Positions 25,100 to 61,482 of a stretch of 64,000 bases of DNA are shown one piece after another. The notes beneath the pieces were generated by a model that was given only the letters and a program-made list of their open reading frames with translations, was not told the origin of the DNA and did not search any database. The first letter of the stretch is position 1, and every line of letters starts with the position of its first letter. The stretch is from Verrucomicrobium sp. BvORR106 (GTDB lineage: Bacteria > Verrucomicrobiota > Verrucomicrobiia > Verrucomicrobiales > Verrucomicrobiaceae), in the NCBI RefSeq assembly GCF_000739655.1, contig NZ_BATR01000007.1:1-64000 (forward strand). Direction: 5' to 3'. The position numbers were made by a program, and so were the translations under genes.

Positions 25100-25289
25100 T
25101 TAACCACAGAGGCACAGAGAACACAGAGACTGATTTTTAGACAGAATTAACGGAATTAACAAAATTCGGTTTCGGGCGGCGGACAGGGGTGCACTCAAAG
25201 TCATTCCGCAGCTGCCCCCTAATTCGGTGAATTCTGTCTGACTTCAGTTTCAGTTCTAGTCTCTGTGCTCTCTGTGTCTCTGTGGTTAA
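25100..25289. repeat. 190-bp palindromic element, ACCACAGAGGCACAGAG family, copy 1
   Basis: Left arm TTAACCACAGAGGCACAGAG..ACAGAGACT then AGACAGAATTAA; right arm GAATTCTGTCTGAC then AGTCTCTGTGCTC..TCTGTGGTTAA. The element fills most of the 305-bp gap between the OppB-type gene and the next gene. Two related copies lie at 60692-60886 and 61316-61482. No ORF; each arm would form a long hairpin. Confidence 0.9.
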
Positions 25290-25317
25290 ACCTCTACCCC
25301 CAAGCCACCCCTGATTT

Positions 25318-28300
25318 CTACTCGAGGGTAATACCGCCCCAGTAGCCGAACTCCCAGGCCCAGCCGGTGGCGGCGCCTTCGAGTTTCAGATCCACTTCCT
25401 GGCCGGCGAATTCGCTGAGGTCGGCGGTGACGGCCTTCCAGCGGTCGCCATCGTGGCCGATGACCTGCTTCTTGATGACCTTGTCCCCCACCTTGATGCG
25501 CAGTTCCCAGTCGCCCTGATCATGGGCGGCCACCACCACGGAGAGCTTGTGCGGCTTGCCGGGAGCGAGCTTCACCTTGCGCTCCAGCGTTGCCGGCTTG
25601 TTCTCCGCAAATGGGTGCATGAGCAGCACGTTCTTGCGGCCTTGGTACTCCGGCAGTTTCACCGGCGTGCGCTCGAAGTCGGGCGCGGAGACTTTCCACT
25701 CGGGATTCCACAGGGAGACACTTTCCCAATCGATCGCGCGCCAGTTGGTCCCGCCGGAAGGCTTCTTCGCCACCGGGGCGTCCATGTTGGTGCTGAGAGC
25801 GATCTTCTTCTCCTTGGTCAGCGGGCCTTCGTCCGGGGGTGCCAGGATGTACCAGATGAGGTTGCGGAACGCGTCGTCAGGGAGTGCACCGAAGCCCATG
25901 GGCATGAGGCTCTGGTGGGTGTTCTCCACCTTGGCCACCTGATCCCGCGGCACGATCTGCTCTGCCCCGCCGATGGCGAGGAGCTTCACGTGAGAGGGCG
26001 TGTCTTCCACCACACGACCGCTCACCGTGCGGTTGTCCTTGGTGGTCACGTTCACGGCTTCATAGCCATTGCCGATGATCTGGTTGGGATCGATCACGTT
26101 GGAGAGCAACGCATCGAGATTGCTGCGACCGCTGCCGATCAGTTCCGGCCCAACCTTCTGCCCACCACCAAAGAACTCATGACAGGTGGCGCACGTGGCC
26201 TGGAACATGATCTTGCCCATGGCGAGATCCGGCTCCCCTTCCATGCAGACTTTGCGCTTGGCCGCGATGAGGGCCTTGACGTCCGCGTTGGATTCACGCC
26301 ACACGCCCAGCAGGTCTTCTGCCCGCTTTTTCAGAGCAGCGTCCTTTTGGGTGGCGAAGAAGCGGCTCACGATCACCGGCACGTCGGCACGGGCCACGCG
26401 ATTGTCCTTCACCGCATCCAGCAACAGAGCGGCCCATTGAGGGCGGCTGGTCAGGGTTTGGGAAATAGCGGTGCGCACTGCCGGACTGGCTTTGGCCCAA
26501 CGCTGCAGAAGCAGCGCTGGCATGGCCTCACCACCCGCCTCAGCCGTGGTACGCACGGCTTCCAGCAAAAGCGGCTCGGGCACGTCCGACTTCACCAGAG
26601 ACTGAAGACCGTCTTGAATGGCTGCCCCACCGGCCTTGCGAGCCACCTGCAGTGCATCGATGCGCTGTTGCAGCGGCGTCTTGTCATTGAGCACCAGGGT
26701 CATGGTCTCAGCCACAGCCGACTTGTCCCCCCAGAGCACGGCCAGGTTGTGCGCCTGCTTGCGCACCTCGTCATTCTTGCTGGCACGCCACGTGGCGAGC
26801 TGGGCGGCGGGATCGACCGTGGGTTTCAGGACACCACTCTCCTGCCCCTTCACCAAGCCGTCGAGCGTGGTGGCGAGAAGGGCGTCTTCACCTTCCAGTT
26901 TGGCGGCGAACTGCAGCGCGAGATCCATGTTCTTCGCGTCCCTCGTATCCGACAGACGGCGCATGGCCTTGTATGCCAGGGTCCGCGACATGGGCTGGGA
27001 AGCGGGAGCCACTGAGGCCAGCCACGGGATCCACTTGTCCGGCTTCGCGGAGAGGTTGGGTTCGAGGGCCATCCAGAGATGGAACGCGATGAGTCGATCG
27101 TTCTCTGCGCCGCTGGATTTCAGGAGGTTTTCAAGGAAGGCAGGATGCAGGTTGCCAATGCTGTAGGCCGAGCTTCGCGCGGGCGGATCCAACACCAGCG
27201 TGTTCTTGTCCGGCTCAGGCAGACGGCTGGTCCGCCCCAGCGGGGTGGGAATGTGATACTTCTCACGCATCATGCCGCGCAGCGACGTCGCAACGGCTTT
27301 GCGGACCACAGGCTCCTTGTCGAGTGCCAGTGTTTCCAGCAGCGGGAAACGCAGCTGGTCTCCATCCAGCTTCGGCCCGTAGTGATGGAACATGTCCAGA
27401 GACTCTCCGGTCAGCCGTGCCGCCCAAATGCGAATGGAGGCATCCGAGTCCACTGCGGCAAGTTTGACGGCTTCCATCGTCTGCTCATCACCACCACATG
27501 CATGCAGCGCCCAAAGACACTCCAGACGCACTGGGACATCCTTTGAAGACTTGAAAAGCTCAAGCAGCAGGACTGGCGCCGACTCGTCCCTTCTCTCCTG
27601 CAAACATCTTCTCGCCGTGCGCCGCACCCAGTTGTTAGAGTGCGCCACCAACTTCACCAGTTCCGGCGTGGCGAGCTTGTCCAGATTCAGGTCCTTTGAT
27701 TCCCTCGAACCCACGCTGGCCTTCACCAGCGCCGGATCGTCCTTGCCGGTGTACACCACGCGCCAGATGCGGCCGCGGGCGCGGTCCACGCCTTCAGGAT
27801 TGGCCTTGGCATTCTGATAGCAAGGGTACTTGTCGCACCAGTCCATCACCCAGAGGAAACCATCCGGGCCCGTCTTCGTGCTCACGGGGCGGAACCACCC
27901 GTCGTTGGCACGCAGGAAGTCGCGCACCGGGGCGGCCTTGAAGCTGGCTCCCACGGGGTTCACCACTTCTTCATGGACGGCGTTGTCGTGAATGTTGCCG
28001 ATGAACAAGTGCCCGTTCGTGTCTGCGGGATAGCGACCACCCTGATAAATCTGGATGCCGGCGTAGGCAGCACGGAAGTGCTTGAAGTTCACGATGCTGG
28101 GCAGCAGCTCGTACGAGTACGGATTCTCCGGCGCTCCACCCTGTCGGACGTAGAGCCCGCCAGGGGACATATGAAACAAGTGGTCAATGACGCAGGCGCT
28201 GACGAAGTGATTGCCCGCAGCGTCAAAATCACATCCCCAGGGGTTGCTGGTTCCGTCTGCATACACCTCGAACATCCACGGAGCAGCCTTGGACTTGTAG

Positions 28301-29043
28301 TGCGCCTCAGAAGCCCACGATCCCACCGGCTTGCACCGCCCGATGCCAGCATTGAACACGACACCTTGATCCTTGGGATCCCCCGGGCGACGCACCTTGG
28401 AGTGGGTGAACACACCGTGCGTCATGTAGAGCCAGCCGTCCGGCCCCCAGGAGAAAGAGTTCAGGAGCTCATGCGTGTCCTCGCGGCCGAAACCTGTGAG
28501 CACCACGCGCCATTCATCCGGTTTGTCATCGCCATCATTGTCCCGGAAGTGCAGCAGATGCGGCTGCTGGCCAATGTACACGCCGCCATCTCCGTAAAGG
28601 ATGCCGCAGGCGAGATTCAGACCTTCCAGGAAGACGGTGCGCTTGTCGGCCACGCCATCATTGTCGGTGTCCTCCAGAATGACCACGCGATCTCGCGGAA
28701 TCGGCCCCTTCAGATCCGGCATAGGATGGTAGAGATCATCCTTGGCCTCACCGCCAAAGGGGGCGGGTGCCGTGGACCCTTCCGGATATTCGTAGAGCTC
28801 CACCACCCAGAGTCGCCCCTTGGGATCCCAGGCCATGCCCACGGGATTCTCGATCATCGGTTCATGGGCAAAACACCGTACCTCATACCCAGGCGGCACG
28901 GTCGTTTTCTTCTGCGCCTCTTCCGGGGAGGGGCAGATGGAATTCGCGGGAGCGCGCTCGCCGACCAGCTCTTTGCTGGCGGTCTGAGCATGCGCCATCC
29001 CGGTCAATCCCAGGGCGAGCAGCAGAAGATAGGAAGGTCTCAT
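25318..29043 (-). CDS. PVC-type 'membrane-bound dehydrogenase' with HEAT repeats and c-type heme domain
   Basis: 1241 residues from the ATG at 29043, which begins a clear signal peptide (RPSYLLLLALGLTGMAHAQ). Residues ~45-420 form a beta-propeller (PPGYEVRCFAHEPMIENPVG, WVVELYEYPEG, VVILEDTDNDGVADK) of the Pirellula/Verrucomicrobium N-terminal type, related to PQQ-dependent sugar dehydrogenases. A HEAT-like region (about 450-900) follows. The heme domain has CATCH at about residue 951 and the distal GSGRSNLDALLSNVIDPN then VSGRVVEDTPSHVKLL. The last ~150 residues look like a beta-sandwich. Thought to oxidise sugars in the periplasm, passing electrons to cytochromes; not proven. It is monocistronic. 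Confidence 0.92.
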   Translation of the reverse strand: MRPSYLLLLALGLTGMAHAQTASKELVGERAPANSICPSPEEAQKKTTVPPGYEVRCFAHEPMIENPVGMAWDPKGRLWVVELYEYPEGSTAPAPFGGEAKDDLYHPMPDLKGPIPRDRVVILEDTDNDGVADKRTVFLEGLNLACGILYGDGGVYIGQQPHLLHFRDNDGDDKPDEWRVVLTGFGREDTHELLNSFSWGPDGWLYMTHGVFTHSKVRRPGDPKDQGVVFNAGIGRCKPVGSWASEAHYKSKAAPWMFEVYADGTSNPWGCDFDAAGNHFVSACVIDHLFHMSPGGLYVRQGGAPENPYSYELLPSIVNFKHFRAAYAGIQIYQGGRYPADTNGHLFIGNIHDNAVHEEVVNPVGASFKAAPVRDFLRANDGWFRPVSTKTGPDGFLWVMDWCDKYPCYQNAKANPEGVDRARGRIWRVVYTGKDDPALVKASVGSRESKDLNLDKLATPELVKLVAHSNNWVRRTARRCLQERRDESAPVLLLELFKSSKDVPVRLECLWALHACGGDEQTMEAVKLAAVDSDASIRIWAARLTGESLDMFHHYGPKLDGDQLRFPLLETLALDKEPVVRKAVATSLRGMMREKYHIPTPLGRTSRLPEPDKNTLVLDPPARSSAYSIGNLHPAFLENLLKSSGAENDRLIAFHLWMALEPNLSAKPDKWIPWLASVAPASQPMSRTLAYKAMRRLSDTRDAKNMDLALQFAAKLEGEDALLATTLDGLVKGQESGVLKPTVDPAAQLATWRASKNDEVRKQAHNLAVLWGDKSAVAETMTLVLNDKTPLQQRIDALQVARKAGGAAIQDGLQSLVKSDVPEPLLLEAVRTTAEAGGEAMPALLLQRWAKASPAVRTAISQTLTSRPQWAALLLDAVKDNRVARADVPVIVSRFFATQKDAALKKRAEDLLGVWRESNADVKALIAAKRKVCMEGEPDLAMGKIMFQATCATCHEFFGGGQKVGPELIGSGRSNLDALLSNVIDPNQIIGNGYEAVNVTTKDNRTVSGRVVEDTPSHVKLLAIGGAEQIVPRDQVAKVENTHQSLMPMGFGALPDDAFRNLIWYILAPPDEGPLTKEKKIALSTNMDAPVAKKPSGGTNWRAIDWESVSLWNPEWKVSAPDFERTPVKLPEYQGRKNVLLMHPFAENKPATLERKVKLAPGKPHKLSVVVAAHDQGDWELRIKVGDKVIKKQVIGHDGDRWKAVTADLSEFAGQEVDLKLEGAATGWAWEFGYWGGITLE

Positions 29044-29190
29044 AAAAAGGAAGTTGCGAGGTGAAATGCTACGAAACCCTCCCTGGGATCTCACGGACAT
29101 CTTTTATGACGAATCGGACACAGCCCTCCTCCCAACCACGCATCCCAAGATGCGCCTTGTGACAGTGAAAATTCTCTCCAACGTCCTCCC

Positions 29191-30198
29191 ATGCAGAAAA
29201 AACGGACCGTTAAGATCAACAAGCCCCCGATTCTCTACCCTGAAACCCAGAGAATCATCGCCCGGGTGGAGAAGAAACTGGACGGTCCCTTCATCGCCTA
29301 CTGGTCCAGCGGAAACGGTTCCGTGTGCCACAATGACGTGGCGGCCTTCTTTGAGGTGCTGAAAAACCTCGGCCACCAGAAGCATCTCTATCTTTTCATC
29401 AAGTCCAACGGCGGCAACGGGCAGGCCGCCCTGCGCATCGTGAACCTGCTGCGACAATACGCCACGAAGATCACTGCCCTGGTCCCGCTGGAGTGCGCCA
29501 GCGCCGCCACTATGATGGCGATCGGGGCCGATGAGATCCAGATGGGCCCCCTGGCCTACCTCACGGCGGTGGACACCTCCCTCACCCATGCGCTCTCCCC
29601 GGTGGATCGCAACAACTACGCCGTGGCCGTGAGCCAGGACGAGCTGAACCGCGTGCTGCGCCTGTGGCGAGAGTCCTCCCAAACCGGCGATACCAACCCC
29701 TATAAAAACCTCTACGATCACGTGCACCCGCTCGTCTTCGGGGCCATCGACCGCGCCAGTTCCCTCTCCATCAAGATTTGCGAGGAGATCCTCTCTTATC
29801 ATTTAAAGGACGCGACCCAGCGTGAGCGCATCAGCAAGCACCTCAACTCCGCCTACCCCAGCCACGGCTACCCGATCATGTTGCGTGAGGCCAAGCGCGT
29901 GGGTCTGAAGGTCACCGAGCTGGATCCCGAGCTGAACGATCTGCTGGTGAGCCTGAGCGAGCGCTACTCGGAAATGGGGCAGCAGGCCATCACCGACTTC
30001 GACGAGAAGAACTACCACGACCACGAGATCCTCAACATCATCGAGGGCAAGGGCGTGAGCTTCAACTTCCAGAACGACAAGGACTGGCACTACCGCGAAA
30101 ACGAACGGCGCTGGGTGCCGCTCAATGACCAGAGCGCCTGGAACAAAAACACCATGGTGGCGGGCAAATTGCGCACGACCCGCTTCCACATTCGTTAA
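29191..30198 (+). CDS. SDH_sah-family (ClpP/crotonase-fold) serine protease-like protein
   Basis: 335 residues. The core resembles the ClpP-like SDH proteinase family (PF01972): LYLFIKSNGGNGQAALRIVN, then VPLECASAATMMAIGADEIQ, where the Ser of CASAATMMA fits the nucleophile position, and MGPLAYLTAVDTSL. The C-terminal half is helical (AYPSHGYPIMLREAKRVGLK) and ends HYRENERRWVPL, features of this family. No signal peptide or membrane segment, so it is cytoplasmic. The family contains a serine dehydrogenase degrading protease from Pseudomonas; actual substrates in other bacteria are unknown. Promoter probably in the 147-bp gap shared with the divergent dehydrogenase gene. Confidence 0.82.
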   Translation: MQKKRTVKINKPPILYPETQRIIARVEKKLDGPFIAYWSSGNGSVCHNDVAAFFEVLKNLGHQKHLYLFIKSNGGNGQAALRIVNLLRQYATKITALVPLECASAATMMAIGADEIQMGPLAYLTAVDTSLTHALSPVDRNNYAVAVSQDELNRVLRLWRESSQTGDTNPYKNLYDHVHPLVFGAIDRASSLSIKICEEILSYHLKDATQRERISKHLNSAYPSHGYPIMLREAKRVGLKVTELDPELNDLLVSLSERYSEMGQQAITDFDEKNYHDHEILNIIEGKGVSFNFQNDKDWHYRENERRWVPLNDQSAWNKNTMVAGKLRTTRFHIR

Positions 30199-30200
30199 GT

Positions 30201-30216
30201 TCAGGGAACGCCCTGA
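30201..30216. repeat. Short perfect hairpin after the SDH-like gene
   Basis: TCAGGG-aacg-CCCTGA immediately follows the stop at 30198. No T-run, so it is a weak candidate for transcript end or mRNA processing between this gene and the parvulin gene 28 bp on. Confidence 0.35.
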
Positions 30217-30243
30217 GGCCGCTCGTGCCCCACTCTGCCTGGC

Positions 30244-31299
30244 ATGAAGCCCCTCACTCGCCCCCGATTCACCATGCCATCCCATGGGCTCTCCTGGCCT
30301 GTGGTGATGGTGATGTTGGCCCTGATCGCCTCAGCGGCAGCCTTCTGGTGGCACCTCCAGGAGCGGGCCCATGAGGCCCAGGTGGTAGCGCGAGTGGGGC
30401 CGACAGCGACCTCACGGGAGATCACCCGCCGCCAGATTGCCGAGGCGCTGCGTTCCCAGCTTTGGTCTCGCAGCGAGGCCTGGGAGGCACTGGCTCCCGT
30501 CTTGCAGCAGCAACGTCGTGTGGAAGCGCTCGATCGCCTGATCGCCTCTCATGCGCTCCAGCAGTGGGCGCTCGCCCAGCAGGCCCCTGAGCACCCCACT
30601 GCCGCAGAGGATGCTCTGCAGACCTTCATCAAGCAGTTCGAGATCCCCGACTCCTGGCGGCAACGCTCCGCCCTGCAGCAGATGAATGAAGTCCAGCTCC
30701 ACATCTGGATGGAAGACGAGACCCGTCAGAGGCTGGCTTTCGATGCCGAGGTCAATCGCCGCATCACCACCGTGACACCCCAGGAGATCAAGGCATGGAT
30801 CCAGGATCACGCCACACAGGTGCGCCTGCCAGAGCGAATCTCCGCCAGCCACGTCTTCCTGAGCGGGCATGACAAAGACAAGCCAGACCGGACAGCAGAA
30901 ATCAATGACCTGCATCGACGTCTCTTGGCCGGTGAAGTCAAACTCTCCGCCCTGGCAGGTGAGGTCTCTGAAGACGGGCGCAGCAACAAGCTGGGCGGAA
31001 GTCTCGGCTGGTTCAGCCGGGACCGGGTGCCGGCAGATTTCGCGGAGAAGGTCTTCTCCCAGAAGACAGGAGAACTGGGCATCCCCTTCCGCACCGGACT
31101 GGGCTGGCACATCGTCCAGGTGCAGGCCAGACGCCCGGCCCGTGCCGCCACGTTTGAAGAAGCGCAGGCAGAAGTCGCCGCCCACCTCACCTCCACCCGC
31201 CGCAGCGCGGAATCCACCCGGCTCATGGAGGAGATCCTGAAGCTCACCACCGTGGAAAAGCATCTGGATCGCCTCAGTGGTGTGGTGCCGGAAAGCTAG
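30244..31299 (+). CDS. Membrane-anchored peptidylprolyl isomerase, parvulin type
   Basis: 351 residues. One hydrophobic helix (about 19-37) near the N-terminus anchors or exports it. A SurA-like helical region (residues ~45-190; RRQIAEALRSQLWSRSEAW, ITTVTPQEIKAWI) precedes a single parvulin domain (about 198-300): RISASHVFLSGHD, LAGEVSEDGRSNKLGGSLGW, FSRDRVPADFAEKVFS and RTGLGWHIVQVQARRPAR, the usual PpiC core. It folds exported proteins by isomerising Xaa-Pro bonds. Unlike E. coli SurA it has one isomerase domain instead of two. Confidence 0.9.
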   Translation: MKPLTRPRFTMPSHGLSWPVVMVMLALIASAAAFWWHLQERAHEAQVVARVGPTATSREITRRQIAEALRSQLWSRSEAWEALAPVLQQQRRVEALDRLIASHALQQWALAQQAPEHPTAAEDALQTFIKQFEIPDSWRQRSALQQMNEVQLHIWMEDETRQRLAFDAEVNRRITTVTPQEIKAWIQDHATQVRLPERISASHVFLSGHDKDKPDRTAEINDLHRRLLAGEVKLSALAGEVSEDGRSNKLGGSLGWFSRDRVPADFAEKVFSQKTGELGIPFRTGLGWHIVQVQARRPARAATFEEAQAEVAAHLTSTRRSAESTRLMEEILKLTTVEKHLDRLSGVVPES

Positions 31300-31357
31300 G
31301 TCGCGGGACCATGCGCAACCTCATTGCGTATTCCAGCAGTCCGCCTACTCTAGCGCC

Positions 31358-34156: not shown

Positions 34157-34158
34157 AC

Positions 34159-36376: not shown

Positions 36377-36411
36377 GCCTCGCGGGGAACGTAGTCTAAA
36401 CTGACCTTTCG

Positions 36412-41718: not shown

Positions 41719-41728
41719 AGAAGTTTTT

Positions 41729-41933
41729 CATTCTCATACAAAGGCACCAAGGCACGAAGACGGCTTCCTGATGTAGTCGGCGGGGCTCTGTTCGTAAGTT
41801 CAAATTTCAGTTTGCCTCAGCACGCCTTACCCTTGATGCACTGAGGCAAACTGAAGTTTGTACTACCAACAGCTTCATCTGGATCCTCGCCACATGAATC
41901 TTCTTTGTGCCTTCGTGCCTTTGTGTGAGGATG
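41729..41933. repeat. Nested palindrome (CAAAGGCACGAAGG-type outer arms, REP-like core)
   Basis: Outer arms CATTCTCATACAAAGGCACC (41729 on, to 41760) and CTTTGTGCCTTCGTGCCTTT (41904 on, within 41901-41933) pair at about 27 of 31 positions. The core, 41794-41820 with 41841-41866, contains TTTGCCTCAG/CTGAGGCAAA and the TACAAACTTCAGTTTGC motif related to the palindrome behind the RAYT gene. The rest of the non-coding stretch 41934-42165 shows nothing recognisable. Confidence 0.8.
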
Positions 41934-42165
41934 AATCGTAACGCCCAATCAGGTTCAGGAGTCAATCGTCGAGGCGACCAGGACCCACCCCTGCACGGCA
42001 CTGGACCGCCGCGAACGACTCTTTGTCTCCCCCTCTCTTCAGGCTGTCACACACCCCCTCCCTAGCAGATTATTCACAAATCCTCTCTCCTCATCGACAT
42101 CGGCCACGACACCCGGCCCCTTGCCTGGAAAAGCGTCAATCTAACAATCAAGACCAAACAACTTA

Positions 42166-51109: not shown

Positions 51110-51128
51110 GGTCTTAGGAAATAAAGGT

Positions 51129-52940: not shown

Positions 52941-52973
52941 GAAATGGATGGGTGAAAGAGTTTCAGGAAAGAA

Positions 52974-53057: not shown

Positions 53058-53077
53058 GGTGTGCGTGGAGGGCGGGG

Positions 53078-53161
53078 TTAGAGTTTCTCGCAGAACCGGA
53101 CATAGAGTCCGCTCACGAGGAAGAAGCCGGTGAAGGCAGCGATGTAGAGGAGGTCAGTCAT
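53078..53161 (-). CDS. 27-aa single-helix peptide at the head of the kdp operon
   Basis: Reads MTDLLYIAAFTGFFLVSGLY then VRFCEKL. A small single-helix ORF with the ending Y-V-R-x-C-E-x-L precedes kdpF in many bacterial kdp operons, usually without a name; this one has the same form and spacing (20 bp to kdpF). Probably an additional small subunit or regulator. The promoter should lie just upstream, between 53162 and about 53260. Confidence 0.75.
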   Translation of the reverse strand: MTDLLYIAAFTGFFLVSGLYVRFCEKL

Positions 53162-53297
53162 GGGTGGTTCCGGGTTGGATGTTTCATTGGAACCACGATC
53201 CTCCACCCGCTCTGGCCCTCGAATTAAAAGGGGGCCAAGAGGTGTTAAAAAAGTGTTAAAACGACGGGGCGGATGGGGGATGCGCCTGGGCCACCGG

Positions 53298-53820: not shown

Positions 53821-53880
53821 GGATGCCTAAAAGAGGCCGGACATGAAGTCGGCTTGCAACATCGGAGGCGAAAGGCGTTT

Positions 53881-53908
53881 CCTCTCACCTCTCACCTCTC
53901 ACCTCTCA
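53881..53908. repeat. Four tandem copies of CCTCTCA
   Basis: A perfect 7-bp tandem repeat, four units, between the duplication and the hairpin cluster. Short tandem repeats of this kind change length by slippage; no gene would be affected here. Confidence 0.9.
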
Positions 53909-53922
53909 CCCCATCCCCCCCA

Positions 53923-53997
53923 GGCGCTCGCGCCGCCTAAACCAGCGGAGCGCCTCAACAGCCCGCTTGCGGGCCCCTCAACCAGCGCGCAGCGCGC
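53923..53997. repeat. Cluster of four tiny self-complementary hairpins
   Basis: GGCGCTCGCGCC (53923-53934), GCGGAGCGC (53945-53953), GCCCGCTTGCGGGC (53961-53974) and GCGCGCAGCGCGC (53985-53997), separated by similar linkers (CTAAAC, CTCAAC). Each is a different GC palindrome with a 1-4-nt loop, and the linkers repeat while the stems vary. Confidence 0.8.
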
Positions 53998-54009
53998 CTA
54001 AACCTCTCC

Positions 54010-54858
54010 TCAAGCAAACTTCCGCATCCGTGCCCGCACGTCATCCTTCAGGCGATCCACAAATCCCAGGGCAAATTCTTCAGGGTTCAAGGTATCATCC
54101 TGGATGAGCGGCGTCAGATCCATCGCAAACGTGAGCGAGTTAGTCGCATCGGTCGTGTGGGAGTCAAAATAGGTCGCATTCGCACGGCGCAGGCCTTCCT
54201 CGGCCAGGTCATAGCGCTTGCCACCGCTGATCTGGGAGTCGAACACTGCGAGCAGCGCACCGATCAAATGCGGATACTGGTCCACCCAGAGCATCACCTT
54301 GTCCTCGCTGAGCAGCCAGTCCAGTTTGCGCCAGACTTCACAGCCGTACACCCGCTGGGGGCGGGCCTCTTTGGGCAGGGAGCGCAGGGCTTCCAGGCAA
54401 CGCAGGAAGGTGGCCACATGGGTGTCATGACGGTCCGCCGGATTGTGCAGATACACAAACTGGGGCTGAGTCAGCTTGAGGATGCGCAGAAGGTCATCAG
54501 AGACGTCTTCTTTGCGGCCGGTCTTCACGTCTTCGCTGGGATAGCCCAGCTGGACCATTACACTGTACTCGCCGACGAAGGCGGCCTTCCGCTGCTCGTG
54601 CTTGCGCACTTCCAGCATCTCCTCATCCGTGTAGTGGGCATACGGCCCCTTTCTCGGGCTGCCGGATCCGTTCGTCACCACCACGCCGCCGAACCACTTT
54701 TCATCCCGCCGAAAGCACTCGGTGATGCCGTGATAGGCCGCGATTTCCAGGTCGTCCTGGTGGCTGACGATGCCAAGGTGGGTCACCCGGGCAAATGCCT
54801 GGGCGGGGTCAGTCTGATCGGGGACAAACAGGTCGGCTTTGGAGTGGCGAAAGAGCAT
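54010..54858 (-). CDS. PIG-L family (LmbE-like) deacetylase
   Basis: 282 residues from the ATG at 54858 (MLFRHSKADLFVPD); the extra 49 codons up to 55005 look non-coding. The zinc site is visible: LGIVSHQDDLEIAAYHG (HxDD) near residue 30 and YLHNPADRHDTHVATFLRC (the distal His) near residue 148. The family removes acetyl groups from N-acetylglucosamine-type compounds such as GlcNAc-PI or mycothiol precursors. The substrate is unknown and the neighbours offer no hint. Divergent from phoH. Confidence 0.9.
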   Translation of the reverse strand: MLFRHSKADLFVPDQTDPAQAFARVTHLGIVSHQDDLEIAAYHGITECFRRDEKWFGGVVVTNGSGSPRKGPYAHYTDEEMLEVRKHEQRKAAFVGEYSVMVQLGYPSEDVKTGRKEDVSDDLLRILKLTQPQFVYLHNPADRHDTHVATFLRCLEALRSLPKEARPQRVYGCEVWRKLDWLLSEDKVMLWVDQYPHLIGALLAVFDSQISGGKRYDLAEEGLRRANATYFDSHTTDATNSLTFAMDLTPLIQDDTLNPEEFALGFVDRLKDDVRARMRKFA

Positions 54859-55149
54859 GGCAGGTGGTTCACGATGAGCGGAAACCGCCTCGGGGCAAGG
54901 CGATTGGTGGCATTCCGAAAGACGAATGTCCGAAACCGGCACATTGGGAGCAAAAATCTCCAAGTTTCGGACCGGGCGGCCCAAGGTTACCGGAGCATCT
55001 GGCACGCTTTAGGCATGCAACAGATCTGTCACGCGATTCTCCATGAAAATGGAGGGATCGTGGTTTTTATGCTTGCAGTTGCCACTCAAAGTCGTGTTTA
55101 CTTTGACGAACTTAATTAATTCGGATGTACGCTTCATCCGCACGACCCC

Positions 55150-55195
55150 AACCGCCCGAGGACGCCTCTGCGTTCCTTATGGGCGGTTTTCTTTT
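55150..55195 (+). terminator. Terminator-like hairpin upstream of the phoH gene
   Basis: AACCGCCC (55150-55157) pairs with GGGCGGTT (55181-55188), with an inner GAGG-acg-CCTC hairpin, followed by TTCTTTTT. No CDS ends just upstream on this strand, so it may end a short RNA starting near 55100 or act as an attenuator for phoH (start 55269). See findings. Confidence 0.6.
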
Positions 55196-55268
55196 TCCGC
55201 CATGGTCGGGCTAACCCCACTGCTGGCTGGTCAACCCTGAACCTTCAACCACCCCAACAACACCCTAT

Positions 55269-56858
55269 ATGCTCCACGAAGCCGCTCCTTCCCCCGAACT
55301 GATGCTGAGTCTCGAAGAGGAAATCACTAACGGGAGGGAAAACGGCAACGGGGGCGGCGTCCAGTACGGAAGCGGCGGAACAGGGACGCGAAGGAAGCGA
55401 GGAGTCAACGGGCGGAACGGCTCCGCCCAGAGCACCCGGGTGAAGTCCTTTGTGCTGGACACCAACGTGCTGCTGCATGATCCGGCCTGCCTGCAAAGGT
55501 TCGAGGACAATGAAGTGTGCATCCCCGTGGATGTGCTGGGCGAGCTGGACCGGTTCAAGAACGAACCCAGCGATCGAGGAGCCAACGCCCGCGAGGTGCA
55601 CCGTGCCCTCTCCCGCGCCTTTTCACAGCCCGGCGCGGACGTCATGCAGGGGGTGACCACTGCCGGCGGAGGCCGCGTGCGCCTGGTGGTGTTTGACCTC
55701 AAGGAAGCGCTTCAATCCAAGCCGGTGCAGCGCTTTGAACGCGTGTTTCATGACATGGAGAAGCCGGATCACCGCATCCTCGCCTGCGCCCTCTGGCTGG
55801 GTCACATCGCGGATCATCCGGTGATCCTGGTAAGCAAGGATCTGAACATGCAGCTCAAGGCCCGCGCCGTGGGCATGCCCTGTGAGGACTATCTGCATGA
55901 CAAGGTGGAGGCCCGCGAAGTTTCCCAAACCGAGCTCGTCACCGTGCAGGTGACCTCACATGAGCTGCAGCGCTTTGCCAGCAGCGCCACGCTGGAGCTG
56001 GAGCCACGCCGCTATCCCGCGCTGGCCGTGAACGAATACGTCCTGCTCTCCGCCGGGGAGAAGAACACCATGCCCGCGCGCTTCAGCGCCACGGGCTCCT
56101 TCATCAAACTGCAGGTGCCGGAGTCGCTCAAGATCCTGCAGGGCCGCACCATCAAGCCCATGAACCTGGGCCAGGCCTGCCTGCTGGATGCGCTCATGAA
56201 CCCGGAGATCTCCCTGGTCACCTGCTTCGGCCAGGCGGGCACGGGCAAGACGCTGCTGGCCTGTGCCGCAGGTCTCTCCCAGGTGATGGGAAACACCTAC
56301 TCCGGCATCACCGTGAGCCGCCCCATCGTCGCCATGGGCCAGGGCATCGGCTTCCTCCCCGGTTCCCTGCATGAGAAGATGCGCCCCTGGCTCCAGCCGG
56401 TGTACGATGCCCTGGATCTGCTGACCCGCCCTGCTGCCAATCCCAGCTTCAGCAAGAAGAAGACCTCCCGTCATGGCAACCCCAACCCGCCCCTGCAGAG
56501 CATGGCCTCCGGCAGCGCCGCCGCCCCCTACGATCCGCTGGTGCAGTCCGGCGTGATCGAGATCGAGGCGCTCTGCTACATCCGCGGCCGCAGCATCCCG
56601 GACCGTTTCTTCATCCTGGATGAGGCGCAGCAGCTCACCCCGCTGGAGGCCAAGACCGTGGTCACCCGCATGTCCCGTGGCAGCAAGCTGGTCCTCATCG
56701 GCGATCCCGCCCAGATCGACAACCCATATGTGGACAGCCGCAGCAACGGCCTGGTGTACACCCGCCAGCGCATGCGCGGCCAGTCCTTTGCCGCACACGT
56801 CCCGCTGGGCAAGGGCGAGCGCAGCCCGCTCGCGGAAGCCGGGGCCCGCCTGCTGTAG
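55269..56858 (+). CDS. PIN domain-PhoH family ATPase (YlaK-like)
   Basis: 529 residues. A low-complexity Gly-rich N-terminus (about 20-55) precedes a PIN domain (about 58-185): KSFVLDTNVLLHDP, IPVDVLGELDRFK and HRILACALWLG with the acidic metal residues of PIN nucleases. PhoH-like ATPase (about 300-500): CFGQAGTGKTLLACAAGL (Walker A), YIRGRSIPDRFFILDEAQQL (Walker B) and LVLIGDPAQIDNPYVDSRSN. A PIN-PhoH fusion is a known RNA helicase/ribonuclease architecture. A terminator follows. Confidence 0.93.
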   Translation: MLHEAAPSPELMLSLEEEITNGRENGNGGGVQYGSGGTGTRRKRGVNGRNGSAQSTRVKSFVLDTNVLLHDPACLQRFEDNEVCIPVDVLGELDRFKNEPSDRGANAREVHRALSRAFSQPGADVMQGVTTAGGGRVRLVVFDLKEALQSKPVQRFERVFHDMEKPDHRILACALWLGHIADHPVILVSKDLNMQLKARAVGMPCEDYLHDKVEAREVSQTELVTVQVTSHELQRFASSATLELEPRRYPALAVNEYVLLSAGEKNTMPARFSATGSFIKLQVPESLKILQGRTIKPMNLGQACLLDALMNPEISLVTCFGQAGTGKTLLACAAGLSQVMGNTYSGITVSRPIVAMGQGIGFLPGSLHEKMRPWLQPVYDALDLLTRPAANPSFSKKKTSRHGNPNPPLQSMASGSAAAPYDPLVQSGVIEIEALCYIRGRSIPDRFFILDEAQQLTPLEAKTVVTRMSRGSKLVLIGDPAQIDNPYVDSRSNGLVYTRQRMRGQSFAAHVPLGKGERSPLAEAGARLL

Positions 56859-56885
56859 TTCATTTACTCCCGCTCTCAGACACCG

Positions 56886-56925
56886 ATGCCGGCCTGGGCT
56901 CATCGCCCAGGCCGGCATTGTTTTG
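56886..56925 (+). terminator. Rho-independent terminator after phoH
   Basis: ATGCCGGCCTGGGC (56886-56899) and GCCCAGGCCGGCAT (56905-56918) make a 14-bp perfect stem with a TCATC loop, followed by TGTTTTGG. Confidence 0.9.
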
Positions 56926-56970
56926 GCCCCCCTGAGGCACATCACGGATGTTGCCCCATCGAACCTGTGA

Positions 56971-58215
56971 CTAGGGATTCCCCACCCGTCCCATCACCAG
57001 GATCAAACCGCTGGGCTGATGGCGGATGTAGAAAAGGAACGGGTGGTTGGCGATGAAGAGCACGGGGATCGGCCCCTTCTCCTCCGGAGGCTTGCCGCCG
57101 CCAAAAGGATCTGCAGGCGCATAGAGGGCAGACGTCGCCTCTGCCCCCGCTTCATTGACATCCACTGTGGTCTCCTTGTAGAGTCCACTGAGAAAGAGAG
57201 GCTGGCTCCGGCTCATCGGCCCCAACTCCGCACCCCCGGGAGTGATCACTCTTCCGGCCCCCAAGGCACGTAGCAGCATCGAAAGCTCCCCGCCCAGGGA
57301 AAAGGAGAACCGGGGCAGGTGCACCGTCACCTGAGTGGACTCAAGTTTGCCGATGGCCTCCTCCAGCCCAACCTGAGTGAGAGCCTTTTCCACCGCGGGC
57401 AGCCCGTCCTGTGCGGCAGGCAGCAGGATGAGCATGCTGTAGTCCTGTGACCGGTCCCCCATTGGCATCTCCAGCAGCCCATACCCCTGGGCCTCCATCT
57501 TGACGTGACGCAGAGTGCCTTTCCTCCGCATCATCATGACCTGCTTGTCCCTCCTGACTGAGGGCACCCAGAACACCCGTTGCACAGTATCCTGCGGAGG
57601 AAAGCGGTCTGCCCATGGCCCCTTGAAATACAGCGTGTTCACCAGAGCCAGCGCATTGGGATCACTCCCCAGCCCCCCTTTAGGCACCAGATCCGTGATG
57701 CGTCCCCGGGTCCCCCGCCGGATCAGCTCGTTGATGGCTTCCGCGGCACTCGCGGGATCGTCACTCTTGAGCACCTGAGGTAGCACCCCGTATGTATTCT
57801 GGGCCGCATCCAGAAAGGGATCCTCCAGTTGTACGCCTTTGCGTATCAGCAGATTCATCGTCGAATCGATGATCACTTTGCCATCCGCCGCCGATTTCCC
57901 CAATGACTCCCCGAGGCGCTTGATGGCCTCAGATCGAGCGGCAGCATCCCCCTCCCATCCCAGCAGTTGGAGCAATTCTTCCCGGGTTTTCCCCTCCGAT
58001 CCCTCCATCACCAGGGACAGGGTGCGATGCAGGGCATACGGACACATCACGTAGTTGTCCGGCATCGTTTGCAATGCGGGTGCCAGCTTGAAGGCCAGGA
58101 CATTCGATGCCCGGGCCCCCACCCGAGGTGTATCTGCCTGCGCAGCACCATGCCCCAGCGGCCCCAGTAAACCTGCGACCACCCATCCCGCCCACCAGCG
58201 TGAACACACTTTCAT
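56971..58215 (-). CDS. Serpin-family protease inhibitor
   Basis: 414 residues with a signal peptide (about 1-28). Serpin core: NYVMCPYALHRTLSLVMEGS, NALALVNTLYFKGPWADRF (the hallmark N-x-x-Y-F-K-G-x-W) and the C-terminal VLFIANHPFLFYIRHQPSG. The hinge of the reactive loop is VDVNEAGAEATSALYAP, with the small residues expected of an inhibitory serpin, and the loop continues through PADPFGGGKPPEEKGP. Serpins trap serine or cysteine proteases by loop insertion. Secreted here, so its target is probably an extracellular protease. Monocistronic. Confidence 0.9.
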   Translation of the reverse strand: MKVCSRWWAGWVVAGLLGPLGHGAAQADTPRVGARASNVLAFKLAPALQTMPDNYVMCPYALHRTLSLVMEGSEGKTREELLQLLGWEGDAAARSEAIKRLGESLGKSAADGKVIIDSTMNLLIRKGVQLEDPFLDAAQNTYGVLPQVLKSDDPASAAEAINELIRRGTRGRITDLVPKGGLGSDPNALALVNTLYFKGPWADRFPPQDTVQRVFWVPSVRRDKQVMMMRRKGTLRHVKMEAQGYGLLEMPMGDRSQDYSMLILLPAAQDGLPAVEKALTQVGLEEAIGKLESTQVTVHLPRFSFSLGGELSMLLRALGAGRVITPGGAELGPMSRSQPLFLSGLYKETTVDVNEAGAEATSALYAPADPFGGGKPPEEKGPIPVLFIANHPFLFYIRHQPSGLILVMGRVGNP

Positions 58216-58370
58216 GAAGCAAAATCATGCCGCCCGCTTCGAAGGAAGAGAAGAAAAAAATCTGCAACTATGCCTTCCGGCCAACGTTCATCCAGCCTCG
58301 TGCTCCATGCCATCCGCTCCGGAGTGCGTGCCAAACCATAACATCAGCAATCCTCATTCAGATACCGATT

Positions 58371-58742
58371 ATGAAAACGATGCTTACCCTTTTCGCCCTC
58401 GCTCTCAGCGCCTCCCTTGCCCTGGCCGCCGATGGCGACAAGCCCAAGGGCCCCGGTGGTGACGGCGCCAAGCGCAACCCTGAAGAAGCCTTCAAGAAGC
58501 TCGACGCCAATGGCGACGGCTCCCTGAGCAAGGACGAGTTCAAGGCCGCCCCCTTCGCCCAGAAGAATCCTGAGCGCGCTGAAAAAGGCTTCGAACTCAA
58601 GGACAAGGACAAGGATGGCAAGCTCTCCAAGGAAGAGTTCGCCGCCCGCCCTGAAGGCCGCCCCGGCAAGCCCGGTGAAGAGGGCAAAAAGCCCGCCAAG
58701 CCCGAAGGTGAGAAAAAGCCTGAAGGCGACAAGAAGCCCTGA
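58371..58742 (+). CDS. Secreted EF-hand protein 1
   Basis: 123 residues. Signal peptide ends near ALAADGD. Two calcium-binding loops: DANGDGSLSKDE and DKDKDGKLSKEE, both with Asp at 1, 3, 5 and an acidic residue at 12, so both look functional. A Lys/Pro/Glu-rich tail (GKKPAKPEGEKKPEGDKK) completes it. Probably an extracytoplasmic calcium-binding protein; a paralog follows. Confidence 0.85.
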   Translation: MKTMLTLFALALSASLALAADGDKPKGPGGDGAKRNPEEAFKKLDANGDGSLSKDEFKAAPFAQKNPERAEKGFELKDKDKDGKLSKEEFAARPEGRPGKPGEEGKKPAKPEGEKKPEGDKKP

Positions 58743-58757
58743 TCCAGTCCCCTCCAC

Positions 58758-58809
58758 CGCCCCCTGGCTGTCATTTTCCTGAAAAATAGGTGCAATGACG
58801 GCGGGGGCG
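58758..58809. repeat. Imperfect inverted repeat between the EF-hand genes
   Basis: CGCCCCCTGGCTGTCATT (58758-58775) against AATGACGGCGGGGGCG (58794-58809), with small mismatches. It lies 15 bp after the first EF-hand stop, so it may attenuate or end that transcript. Confidence 0.55.
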
Positions 58810-58896
58810 CTTCGTTTCAGCAGCAAGCACCTTCAGGCCCCGGCCTGCCGCGTGCCACTGAAACCCAAAGCATAACCAAACTAGAGTAACATAGTC

Positions 58897-59193
58897 ATGA
58901 AAATCACCGCAGTTCTCTTTGCCCTTCTTGCCACCGCTTCCCTTTCCTTTGCCGCTGACGAAGCCGCCAAGAAGCCCGAAGGAGACAAGCCCAAGGGCCC
59001 GACTGAAGCCGCCTTCACCAAGAAAGACGGCAACGGCGACGGCAAGCTGACCAAGGAAGAGTTCACCAAGGGCGCTCCCGACGCAGCCAAGGCTGAGAAG
59101 CAGTTCGACCGCAAAGACAAAGACAAGAGCGGCGACATCAGCAAGGAAGAATTCCTTGCCGCTGGTCCCAAGAAGGAAAAGGAAGCCAAGTAA
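58897..59193 (+). CDS. Secreted EF-hand protein 2
   Basis: 98 residues. Signal peptide MKITAVLFALLATASLSFAA. Two EF-hand loops, DGNGDGKLTKEE and DKDKSGDISKEE, with intact ligand positions. The Lys/Glu-rich ending (GPKKEKEAK) matches the first protein in style. Gene pair by tandem duplication (same architecture, 154 bp apart). Terminator 50 bp after the stop. Confidence 0.85.
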   Translation: MKITAVLFALLATASLSFAADEAAKKPEGDKPKGPTEAAFTKKDGNGDGKLTKEEFTKGAPDAAKAEKQFDRKDKDKSGDISKEEFLAAGPKKEKEAK

Positions 59194-59243
59194 TCTGGCT
59201 CTCCCTTCCACCAACGTACGGGACTACCCGATCGTTTGATTTC

Positions 59244-59280
59244 GGCCGCCTTCACGAGAGTGAAGGTGGCCTTTTCTTTT
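59244..59280 (+). terminator. Rho-independent terminator after the EF-hand pair
   Basis: GGCCGCCTTCAC (59244-59255) pairs with GTGAAGGTGGCC (59260-59271) with one G-T wobble, loop GAGA, then TTTTCTTTT. Confidence 0.9.
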
Positions 59281-59338
59281 GCTGGCAGGAAAGCGGGGGC
59301 TTCTGCCAAAATGGCGGCTCGATCACCGTTTTTCTCTC

Positions 59339-59785
59339 ATGCCACCCCCTGCCGTCAAACCCGTCGATCCGGCGGAACTCCCTTCACTTGCCCTGGCCAC
59401 CATGCGTGCCGCCAAGTTCCCCATGCTCTCCAGCATGGATGGCGATCAGCCCCGCGTGCGCCCCGTCTCCCCTGTGAAGACAGATGGGTTTACCGTCTTC
59501 ATCGCCAATCTGCGCAGCTACCACAAGACGGAAGAGATCGCCCAGAATCCCAAGGTGGAGCTGTGCTACCTGGACGCCGATCACAATCAGGTCCGTATCA
59601 CCGGGGCGGCGGAAGTCGTCACCGACCGCGCCCTGCTGGAAGACATCTGGGCGGGCAACGCCCTGCTGCGGGCCTATCTGGGCACGCCGGACAATCCTGA
59701 ACTCATCATCTACCGCATCCAGCCCCACCGTGTGCGGTACATGCGGGAATGGGCGCTGCACTACCATGAAGTGCCGCTGATGTAA
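59339..59785 (+). CDS. Pyridoxamine 5'-phosphate oxidase family protein
   Basis: 148 residues from the ATG at 59339. Split-barrel flavin-binding fold: AAKFPMLSSMDGDQPRVRPV, TVFIANLRSYHKTEEIAQN, KVELCYLDADHNQVRITGAA and YRIQPHRVRYMREW. The pattern fits the general-stress/PNPOx-like subgroup (single domain, FMN or F420 binding) rather than PdxH itself. Cytoplasmic. Not clearly part of an operon, although the next gene starts 21 bp on. Confidence 0.88.
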   Translation: MPPPAVKPVDPAELPSLALATMRAAKFPMLSSMDGDQPRVRPVSPVKTDGFTVFIANLRSYHKTEEIAQNPKVELCYLDADHNQVRITGAAEVVTDRALLEDIWAGNALLRAYLGTPDNPELIIYRIQPHRVRYMREWALHYHEVPLM

Positions 59786-59805
59786 CGAATCAGCCCCTTT
59801 TCCTT

Positions 59806-60690
59806 ATGCGCCGTCGCACCTTTCTCGCCACCCTCACCTCTGCCGCCGCGCCAATCTGCGCCCAGGAACCGACTCCCACAGCAGTAGCGAAGCCCACGCT
59901 GCACCTCGCCCGGGAGGGCCACTGGCTGGTCGTCAATGGCGGCCACCTGCCGAAGGGTGAGATCCGCATCAACTACCTGGAGGCTTACTGCCGCGCCGGC
60001 TCCACTGCGGCGGACTGGGTCACACACACGACGGTGGGACATACGACAGAGCTCATCTCCGCCCCACCCGACGGCAAGAGCCTGAACCTCCGCTGTCAGG
60101 TGAAAGACGGACTGGTGGTGGACCATGAAATCCGGGCCGGGGACGATGAAATCACCTTCACCCTCAAGGTCCACAATCCCACCCACCACCTCAACGAGGC
60201 TCACTGGGCCCAGCCGTGCATCCGCCTGGGAGACTTCGCCGGGGGCGAGACCGCCGACCCCAAGGAGGTGAACATCAAGCTGGACCGTAGTTTCATCTTC
60301 CTCAACGGGTGCCTCACCCGGCTGCCCACCAATCCCTGGGCCACCCAGGCACTCCACACCCCTGGACAGGTCTGGTGCCCCAAGGACGTGCCACGCACTG
60401 ATGTGAACCCGCGTCCGTTGAGCACCCTCGTCCCCAGCCACGGACTCATCGGCTGCTTCAGCCAGGATGATCAGTGGATCTTCGCCGTCGCCTTCAGCCC
60501 CTACCAGGAGCTGTTCCAAGGAGTGGCCCGCTGCCTTCACAGCGACTTCCGCATCGGCGAGGTGAAGCCCGGCGAAACTAAGTCGATCCTGGGGAAAATC
60601 TACATCGTCCCCAATGCGAGGGATGAGGGCGCGGCGCTGCTGCAGAGGTATCAAAAGGACTTTGGCAGCGGAGGCGGAGGCAATGATTAG
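59806..60690 (+). CDS. Exported hypothetical protein, 294 aa
   Basis: N-terminus MRRRTFLATLTSAAAPICAQ is a short export signal with consecutive Arg, Tat-like but not a full twin-arginine motif. The body is beta-rich (KSLNLRCQVKDG, DEITFTLKVHNPTHHLNEAH) with His/Trp-rich segments HWAQPCIRLGDF and LHTPGQVWCPKDVPR. Family not recognised; such single exported beta proteins are typical of this phylum. Ends 2 bp before a palindromic element. Confidence 0.7.
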   Translation: MRRRTFLATLTSAAAPICAQEPTPTAVAKPTLHLAREGHWLVVNGGHLPKGEIRINYLEAYCRAGSTAADWVTHTTVGHTTELISAPPDGKSLNLRCQVKDGLVVDHEIRAGDDEITFTLKVHNPTHHLNEAHWAQPCIRLGDFAGGETADPKEVNIKLDRSFIFLNGCLTRLPTNPWATQALHTPGQVWCPKDVPRTDVNPRPLSTLVPSHGLIGCFSQDDQWIFAVAFSPYQELFQGVARCLHSDFRIGEVKPGETKSILGKIYIVPNARDEGAALLQRYQKDFGSGGGGND

Positions 60691-60691
60691 A

Positions 60692-60886
60692 TTTAACCAC
60701 AGAGGCACAGATAACACAGAGACTGGAACTGAGGTTTAGACAGAATTAACGGAATCTACGGAATTAGGATTCAGCTTCCGGAGAATGCGAGTGGACGCCA
60801 AGCCGAAGCTCGAAACGCAATTTTGTTAATTCCATTAATTCTGTCTAAAACAGTATTCCTCTGTGTGCTCTGTGCCTCTGTGGTTG
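60692..60886. repeat. 195-bp palindromic element, ACCACAGAGGCACAGAG family, copy 2
   Basis: TTTAACCACAGAGGCACAGA..AACACAGAGACT on the left, with TTAGACAGAATTAACGGAAT, and right arm TTAATTCTGTCTAAA..TCTGTGTGCTCTGTGCCTCT ending TGTGGTT. Same layout as 25100-25289. It occupies nearly all of the gap to the next small gene and would overlap its promoter. Confidence 0.9.
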
Positions 60887-60910
60887 CAAAAAATTTCACC
60901 GCCCAAACTC

Positions 60911-61291
60911 ATGTTGAAACACTATTTCCTAGTCATCCTCCTTGCCGCGTTGACCGCACCTTTCGCCTCGTCGCTCAAAGCCGACTCCGCGCAAACTGTC
61001 TCCTCATCACTGGCAGGATGTTATGTCCGTGAATCAGACGACAGCCAGACGCAGTCCACCATCGTCTTGAGCATTCACGCCCCCTCGCATGATGTGCTTC
61101 GCGTGACCGCCGTACAGGTGCGTCAGGCCGATTTGCTAGCCAGTCCCGAGGTCTCCGTCATTACCAGTTTGAAATATGATCAAAGCACCCAGACGCTGGT
61201 CAAAGAGTCGGGGCAGGTTTGGGCTGAGCTTGCCACCAAGCAGGGTAAGGCAACCTTGAAAGTCGCCAGTGAAGTGCACACCCGAGAGTGA
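60911..61291 (+). CDS. Secreted hypothetical protein, 126 aa, between two palindromic elements
   Basis: From the ATG at 60911; an upstream in-frame start lies inside the repeat arm. Signal peptide FLVILLAALTAPFASSLKAD. The mature domain is beta-rich with SDDSQTQSTIVLSIHAPSHD and CY at the processed N-terminus (LAGCYVRE), and Gln-rich segments. Family not recognised. It is flanked on both sides by copies of the same palindromic element (24 bp before and 24 bp after), which makes it look like cargo or an island between insertions. Confidence 0.6.
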   Translation: MLKHYFLVILLAALTAPFASSLKADSAQTVSSSLAGCYVRESDDSQTQSTIVLSIHAPSHDVLRVTAVQVRQADLLASPEVSVITSLKYDQSTQTLVKESGQVWAELATKQGKATLKVASEVHTRE

Positions 61292-61315
61292 GCAGAGGCG
61301 GAGGCAACCGTTGAG

Positions 61316-61482
61316 TTTAACCACAGAGGCACAGAGAGCGCAGAGGAATGATTTTTTAGACAGAATTAACAAAATTCACAGAATTAGAATTCAACAACAT
61401 CTCGGCCAAATAGAAGCTGAACCCTAATTCTGTCTAAACCTCAGTTGCATTCCCTCTGTGTTCTCTGTGCCTCTGTGGTTAA
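61316..61482. repeat. 167-bp palindromic element, ACCACAGAGGCACAGAG family, copy 3
   Basis: Left arm TTTAACCACAGAGGCACAGA then TTTAGACAGAATTAAC; right arm CTAATTCTGTCTAAAC..TCTGTGTTCTCTGTGCCTCT and GTGGTTAA. Shorter loop than the other two copies. It fills the gap to the TauE/SafE gene. Confidence 0.9.

Follow-up and report, generated by a model that had tools for sequence, protein, structure and literature searches.

Within the first 64,000 nucleotides of contig NZ_BATR01000007.1 from Verrucomicrobium sp. BvORR106 (positions 1 to 64,000, forward strand; this whole stretch is referred to as the window) three long palindromes share their arms, which raises the question of what kind of element they represent and by which gene, if any, they have been spread. 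Described in an original prediction made from the letters of the window, they are indeed present at 25100-25289, 60692-60886 and 61316-61483 (copies 1, 2 and 3), and far above chance: with up to two mismatches ACCACAGAGNCACAGAG matches the window six times, compared to an expectation of 0.02, and all six matches are arms of copies 1 to 3. As had also been held, the repeat is non-coding and free of a transposase. The view that it has no relative which could suggest a function is not supported: its arms are those of elements which harbour a GxxExxY gene, i.e. a gene of the PD-(D/E)XK nuclease family PF13366/TIGR04256. We consider it quite probable that the window palindromes are gene-less, non-autonomous members of a transposase-free class of GxxExxY elements. 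Computed support for this assignment comes from the shared arms, the association with the gene across phyla, the co-divergence of word and protein, the multicopy gene-less forms as well as replacement and nesting at fixed sites.

Each window copy consists of an outer arm made up of ACCACAGAG words and an inner arm made up of GACAGAATTAAC words, and both kinds of arm enclose GxxExxY genes in two genomes of the same genus (G001 and G003; the 8.69-Mb genome of the window itself is G000). The GxxExxY gene at locus L130 of G001 lies within TTTAACCACAGAGACACAGAGAGCACAGAGGAATGAT, which over 37 positions shows 5, 7 and 2 mismatches to copies 1, 2 and 3, respectively, while that at L176 of G003 lies within TTTGGACAGAATTAACAGAATTTACAAAATTAG, with 4, 5 and 4 mismatches over 33 positions. 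The inner arm of L176 differs at three of 33 positions from 12 of the 26 family members aligned below, and a further G003 locus, L134, bears a divergent ACCACAGAG arm. As the word of the outer arm (L130) and that of the inner arm (L176) both enclose such genes in congeners, the window copies can be read as an inner-type palindrome nested in an outer-type one, both gene-free. No GxxExxY gene is present in the 106 to 137 nt which separate the outer arms in the window, and we therefore call the copies gene-less derivatives rather than full members. In G000 itself three PF13366 genes were found, none of them on the contig of the window; all three lie within inverted word arms, whose words differ from each other (GACAGGATTAAC, ACTAATTGACACTAATGG and CACGAAGG). 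That the window palindromes are related to the GxxExxY elements appears probable to us.

The association extends far beyond the genus. GxxExxY genes were relocated by hidden Markov model, the 250 bp on each side were compared as an inverted pair and scored at thresholds of 15 and 13, and shifted positions on the same contigs served as controls. Among the relatives, inverted arms with a word period of 8 to 11 bp reach a score of at least 15 at 55 of 72 genes and of at least 13 at 58 (controls: 0/268 and 5/268). Among loci from many phyla, whose titles include Planctomycetes, Bacteroidetes, Chloroflexi, Cyanobacteria, Spirochaetes, Acidobacteria, Nitrospirae and Proteobacteria, the corresponding numbers are 44 and 61 of 78 (controls: 0/424 and 4/424); 78 of the 80 loci of this set were scored (L246 and L279 were not), and L245 was taken as the same locus as L168 because of its identical arms. 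Forty GxxExxY loci were picked by hand from the matches listed, in the order of the list and with some skipped. Not one of 30 ribosomal S15 genes of the relatives reaches 13, and random places in 400 kb of G003, evaluated with a wider flank, reach 15 in 9 of 2000 cases. The remark in the original prediction that similar repeats are seen in unrelated phyla thereby receives a concrete form, as ACCACAGAG-type arms flank GxxExxY genes at, for example, L262, L305, L318 and L322. Unusually long, near-perfect arms surround the GxxExxY genes at L172, L169 and L135 (genomes G014 and G004; inverted-repeat scores 124, 63 and 57), and these elements are perhaps young copies.

The arms follow a common grammar. 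At 72 of 99 loci both arms contain the motif CRCNRA on the strand running from outside to inside, and at 10 of 99 on the other strand; its occurrences amount to 375 in the former and 54 in the latter orientation, with 37.8 in shuffled sequences (largest value 53). The best word period is 9 in 45 arms, 8 in 26, 10 in 13 and 11 in four. Moreover, similarity of the arm words rises with protein identity: for the 118 loci with a score of at least 13 (L245 excluded), r is 0.334 over all pairs below 70% identity, 0.508 within the relatives, 0.256 within the all-phyla set and 0.256 between both sets, each value being reached in none of 2000 permutations. Genomes whose typed GxxExxY gene carries a given word contain more copies of that word elsewhere, which for three words, with part of the genes typed and kinship between the genomes not removed, yields p values of 0.008 (4 versus 30 genomes), 0.0026 (7 versus 27) and 0.0011 (13 versus 21).

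The architecture of the three window copies is as follows.

25100-25131, plus strand: copy 1, left outer arm of ACCACAGAG words; 32 nt, 94% complementary to 25258-25289
25136-25158, plus strand: copy 1, left inner arm (TTTAGACAGAATTAACGGAATTA); inverted pair and match to the inner word
25220-25239, minus strand: copy 1, right inner arm; inverted pair
25258-25289, minus strand: copy 1, right outer arm; inverted pair
60692-60721, plus strand: copy 2, left outer arm; inverted pairs; begins one base after the stop codon of the open reading frame (ORF) 59806-60690
60735-60772, plus strand: copy 2, left inner arm; inverted pair
60812-60849, minus strand: copy 2, right inner arm; inverted pair
60859-60885, minus strand: copy 2, right outer arm; inverted pair
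61316-61346, plus strand: copy 3, left outer arm; inverted pair; together with the next bases 2/37 mismatches to the left arm of L130
61355-61370, plus strand: copy 3, left inner arm; match to the inner word
61423-61438, minus strand: copy 3, right inner arm; match to the inner word
61453-61483, minus strand: copy 3, right outer arm; inverted pair
41727-41935, no strand assigned: fourth palindrome, of CACGAAGG words; its arms lie at 41727-41760 and 41902-41935 and enclose a second palindrome (41797-41864)

In an inverted-repeat search of the window the outer arms of all three copies turn out to be 93-94% complementary, and folding energies lie far below those of shuffled sequences (z = -12.06, -11.97 and -12.12 for copies 1 to 3). 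All copies are placed between ORFs and not inside an rRNA gene; a scan of the window against Rfam yields no family at gathering score and hence no rRNA family either. Copy 2 follows the preceding ORF at a distance of one base from its stop codon, and copy 3 sits between two ORFs whose ends point towards it. Like a miniature inverted-repeat transposable element (MITE), each copy possesses terminal inverted repeats and is too short for a transposase. Promoter-like hexamer pairs start in the inner arms of copy 2 (60820-60847, minus strand) and copy 3 (61357-61384, plus strand). The fourth palindrome belongs to another word family than copies 1 to 3, its words matching the arms of L033, a GxxExxY gene of the same genome; at L033 a third copy of the CACGAAGG arm (2623-2658 of that locus) follows about 700 bp past the GxxExxY element.

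Throughout G000 the outer word has 95 matches and the inner word 74 (at most two mismatches, both strands). In the loci fetched, 22 places of the outer arm are paired and 47 unpaired at up to three mismatches; three unpaired ones lie in the window away from the palindromes, probably by chance. From loci of G000, G001 and G003 which had been chosen by hand we obtained 38 distinct elements with both outer arms, 147 to 200 bp in length; in 36 of these the inner word is present on one or both sides (at most three mismatches). The majority align as one oriented family, while a minority is mosaic; the family alignment comprises 26 of the 38, mosaic or truncated elements being omitted, and within one genome the identity among these 26 copies reaches 0.93 at most, the median being 0.74. 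Since most elements align in this manner, the loops are not unrelated, contrary to what the original prediction had assumed: copy 2 is matched over its full length by other copies in G000, G001 and G003 (about 75-86%), and the loop of copy 1 aligns with the family once copy 1 is inverted. At L024, L026, L072 and L087 an outer ACCACAGAG arm, single or with a degraded partner, is followed closely by a GAATTAGGAATG-type palindrome, and these loci look as if one palindrome had been inserted into another. At L092 a lone outer arm precedes a long minisatellite of TGGAGTGG-like units.

It had further been proposed that the arms vary together as a consequence of pairing constraints. To this end two stems (55 pairs) were written out on the 26 aligned copies and compared with 500 shuffles. 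Not a single one of the 55 pairs has changed on both sides, the fraction of paired cells (95.0%) does not exceed that in the shuffles (95.2%), and the observed covariation score is reached by all 500 of them; nor does the structure proposed by RNAalifold itself contain any compensatory pair (0/31). The arms are conserved as sequence, and a substitution in one arm is not compensated in the other. Covariation of the RNA-pairing type is thus rejected by both the hand-written and the RNAalifold pairs, and within the family the arms do evolve in the way which the original prediction had named as speaking against it. Where different families are compared, the arms of one element match each other because of their common origin as an inverted repeat, for which selection on pairing is not needed.

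To follow the fate of the elements, 14 sites of G000 were read in G003 and/or G001 by means of their flanks. The same element is kept at seven of them (L007, L020, L022, L063, L065, L067 and L075; 83-93% identity), while at the other seven the palindrome is altered, replaced or missing. At L066, L069 and L026 an outer arm is retained and the interior differs, that of L026 being a GAATTAGGAATG-type palindrome. Two sites contain a different palindrome: between the genes that enclose window copy 1, G003 carries a GAATTTGGAATGAGGAATGA palindrome, and at the L226 site, anchored by one flank only, a ATTATGAATTATGAATTAG palindrome is present in G000. At the L064/L242 site one half has changed. The locus of copies 2 and 3 corresponds in G003 (L157) to one hybrid which, compared to window positions 60692-61483, takes its left arm from copy 2 and both its loop and its right arm from copy 3; the small gene between both copies (ORF 60863-61291) is lacking there. 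Such a hybrid is what recombination between copies 2 and 3 would give. These two copies also have flanks in common, 16 bp on the right (AAAAATTTCACCGCCC) and at least 11 bp on the left (GGCGGAGGCAA), so that the assumption of three independent insertions stands only in part: full independence of copies 2 and 3 is not borne out. Gene-bearing sites show such turnover as well: L031/L176 has flanks of about 90% identity, interiors which align over 111 bp only, and variant arms; L032/L186 and L033/L204 contain the same element.

As to the enclosed gene, the residues E23, D62, E72, K74, Q86 and Y90 are invariant in 21 GxxExxY proteins. Together they (E72 and K74 as E72-x-K74) constitute a PD-(D/E)XK site with a QxxxY motif, which is of the Cas4/RecB type. 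An AlphaFold2 model calculated from a 24-sequence alignment (predicted local distance difference test, pLDDT, 95; predicted template modelling score, pTM, 0.86) was used, and a single-sequence model of the L245 protein (pLDDT 38) was set aside in its favour. The top fold match of the AlphaFold2 model is 4ic1, SSO0001 (Foldseek E value 1.8e-3; VIA Z score 9.4 over 95 residues), a Cas4 protein. Below this match, at Z scores of 6 to 8, other nucleases of the fold are mixed with unrelated proteins, and the homing endonuclease I-Bth0305I is one of these lower matches (Z 6.5). A search of solved structures by sequence gave one match at an E value of at most 1 (0.49). Models of defence systems were tried as an identity and dropped, the best of them, Cas4b, reaching E 0.011. 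Based on the invariant PD-(D/E)XK and QxxxY residues and on the match of the predicted fold to the nuclease 4ic1, the GxxExxY protein is very likely a nuclease.

From these data the following mechanism may be envisaged. The gene-bearing form consists of an inward-pointing array of words of about 9 bp, the GxxExxY nuclease gene and the same array in inverted orientation. The nuclease would recognise the word arrays, either as duplex or as hairpin or cruciform, and would cut these or the DNA close by; during the repair that follows another copy could serve as template, whereby an element is placed, replaced or nested at the break. Copies without the gene might ride in trans on the nuclease. That the nuclease is the agent of movement is a plausible proposal, which we put forward with reserve.

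Several observations weigh against this interpretation. Neither excision nor transposition nor cleavage has been observed. The ACCACAGAG outer arms have no resident partner because the three GxxExxY genes of G000 carry other words, and some genomes are rich in a word without a typed gene that carries it (ACCACAGAG: 84 copies in G000 and 42 in G003; CACGGAAT: 40; GACAGGATTAAC: 53 and 23). The sampled loci are among the best-scoring matches, orthologues included, and do not represent a random draw. Of the GxxExxY genes, 14 of the 72 in relatives and 17 of the 78 in the all-phyla set score below 13, a value which five of 268 and four of 424 controls attain. Joint inheritance alone would likewise make word and protein diverge together. 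Since seven of the 14 sites keep the same element at 83-93% identity, current activity looks low. The search for empty sites in close relatives, as suggested in the original prediction, gave one absence, that of copy 3 in G001, where the junction aligns poorly; a clean empty site that shows a target-site duplication did not turn up.

These points have to be set against other ways in which such palindromes may arise. The copies could be MITEs of an unseen or extinct insertion sequence (IS), with GxxExxY as mere passenger cargo inserting in the same sites. Terminal inverted repeats, multiple intergenic copies and a length of 150 to 200 bp agree with this, as does the lack of a ACCACAGAG-armed gene among the three GxxExxY genes of G000. 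Yet arms of this grammar enclose GxxExxY genes in many phyla, and they consist of iterated words with fixed polarity, to our knowledge unusual for IS ends; a target-site duplication was not seen at the few sites which could be tested, replaced sites being uninformative. A parent transposase was searched for within the Y1 family only, whose loci in G000 do not carry these arms. We consider this explanation unlikely. Alternatively, the palindromes could be REPIN- or BIME-like repeats which owe their spread to a RAYT (Y1) tyrosine transposase. The genome does contain 18 Y1_Tnp matches, and seven of the eight best Y1 loci have strong inverted flanks (score 36-64) of the BIME type. These arms, however, are built of other words: neither the 17-mer outer nor the 16-mer inner arm motif occurs within up to 1.5 kb of any of the 18 Y1 loci when three mismatches are allowed, GACAGAATTAA (at most one mismatch) is absent from all eight loci that were re-checked, and the bare 9-mer ACCACAGAG, with the same tolerance, occurs zero to two times per re-checked locus, which we take as chance. 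For the ACCACAGAG and GACAGAATTAAC words mobilisation by RAYT was thus rejected, as far as G000 itself is concerned, and as a general explanation it is very unlikely.

If the palindromes were a structured RNA (a regulator, an mRNA stabiliser or a bidirectional terminator) or a repeat that carries a promoter, and if their arms were kept for a role in transcripts, this would account for the very stable folds (z of about -12) and the intergenic position near gene ends. In addition, the region 60400-61800 contains three promoter-like sites compared to 0.7 (standard deviation 0.8) in shuffles; two of the three sites start within an inner arm, one in copy 2 and one in copy 3. Against a role as RNA stand the lack of compensatory pairs among the 26 copies, with paired cells no more frequent than in shuffles, the lack of any Rfam match at gathering score, and the fact that orthologous sites may hold a different palindrome or none. 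No intrinsic-terminator pattern is present at copies 2 and 3 in the region 60400-61800, to which the scan was confined and which does not comprise copy 1; two terminator patterns at 61490-61542 do not exceed the shuffles. A terminator at copies 2 and 3 and a known RNA family within the window were dropped, and a transcript role altogether appears quite unlikely. Finally, the palindromes might be passive DNA in which slippage expands the word arrays, template switching creates palindromes and trapped genes are incidental. Iterated degenerate words, mosaics, solo arms and recombination between copies would be in line with this. It does not fit, however, that two specific gene families are enclosed, while S15 is not (0/30), and that the same words, with the same polarity, are found again in other phyla and change along with the protein. 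We regard it as most improbable.

Among known systems, REPIN/RAYT is described (PMC3116915, PMC2817692, PMC8266576) as dispersed, gene-less intergenic palindromes with a small single gene elsewhere that is linked to the same repeats; REP repeats are given as 20-40 bp long with a GTAG or CGTC tag (PMC3733652). The likeness to the window elements lies in the division into gene-bearing and gene-less forms. Here, the protein is a PD-(D/E)XK nuclease instead of Y1, and the palindromes measure 150-200 bp and are composed of iterated words of 8-11 bp. By analogy, the window elements would work like REPIN-RAYT but are not members of it: gene and repeat words are different, and no Y1 locus of G000 shares these arms. 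For the intervening sequences of 23S rRNA with S23p/IVP a short ORF within a long inverted repeat is mentioned (PMC4990558), and insertions in rRNA genes are reported to occur in ORF-bearing and ORF-less forms at the same sites (PMC11270868). IVP genes likewise lie in iterated-word arms here, but the window copies are located between protein genes and contain no such ORF, and the GxxExxY fold is not the four-helix fold of S23p. ERIC is an imperfect palindrome, for which we know of no mobiliser. ERIC and other bacterial MITEs are mostly intergenic, one to two hundred bp long, present in many copies and non-autonomous (PMC10969869, PMC2759123). Set beside them by description, the window copies are alike in size and intergenic position and differ by their gene-bearing partner. 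With homing endonucleases the GxxExxY elements share a free-standing nuclease gene which is apparently exchanged at fixed sites (L031/L176); they differ in their long inverted word arrays, in that a host-gene target is not shown, and in a fold nearer to 4ic1 (Z 9.4) than to I-Bth0305I (Z 6.5).

Full-text searches of an open-access library, some of them by protein family and part of these too broad to serve as a test, showed no description of an association of GxxExxY genes with inverted word arrays, though subscription papers and database notes could hold one; the papers naming GxxExxY, 23S_rRNA_IVP or PF13366 do not describe it in the passages concerned, and none of the titles listed for the repeat words as text concerns bacterial repeats. 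Nor did we come across an origin assigned to repeats of this kind. Gene-less palindromes with a gene-bearing partner are of a known kind, whereas the GxxExxY element itself is widespread and apparently undescribed.

A second class of genes shows the same arrangement. IVP/four-helix genes (PF05635; L052-L060 and L325-L353) also lie within inverted arms of iterated words, 32 of 38 located genes scoring at least 13 compared to one of 218 controls (38 of 39 genes could be located, L061 could not). Their words are other than those of GxxExxY, and the period that fits best is 7 in 26 arms and 10 in six. The GAATTAGGAATG palindromes which replace ACCACAGAG elements or nest in them are similar to the words in the arms of L058, an IVP gene. 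It is conceivable, though we advance this still more tentatively than the role of the nuclease in movement, that GxxExxY and IVP genes represent two parallel transposase-free selfish classes which have nothing in common but their layout, with a gene or no gene at all enclosed by inverted arrays of a short iterated word, and in which each nuclease would read its own CRCNRA-centred word (about 9 bp apart) and cut at palindromes, thereby driving mutual insertion and replacement at fixed intergenic sites. If true, the occurrence of ACCACAGAG, CGCAGATT, GACAGGATTAAC and CACGAAGG repeats throughout bacterial genomes would be accounted for. The IVP parallel may also bear on the intervening sequences of 23S rRNA, which still lack an explanation. 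Through its link with the repeats the GxxExxY family, so far without a function, gains a probable role, and for the repeats a probable parent can be named; should the word arrays serve as recognition sites, the pairs of arm and protein from many phyla would constitute a natural data set for a DNA-recognition code.

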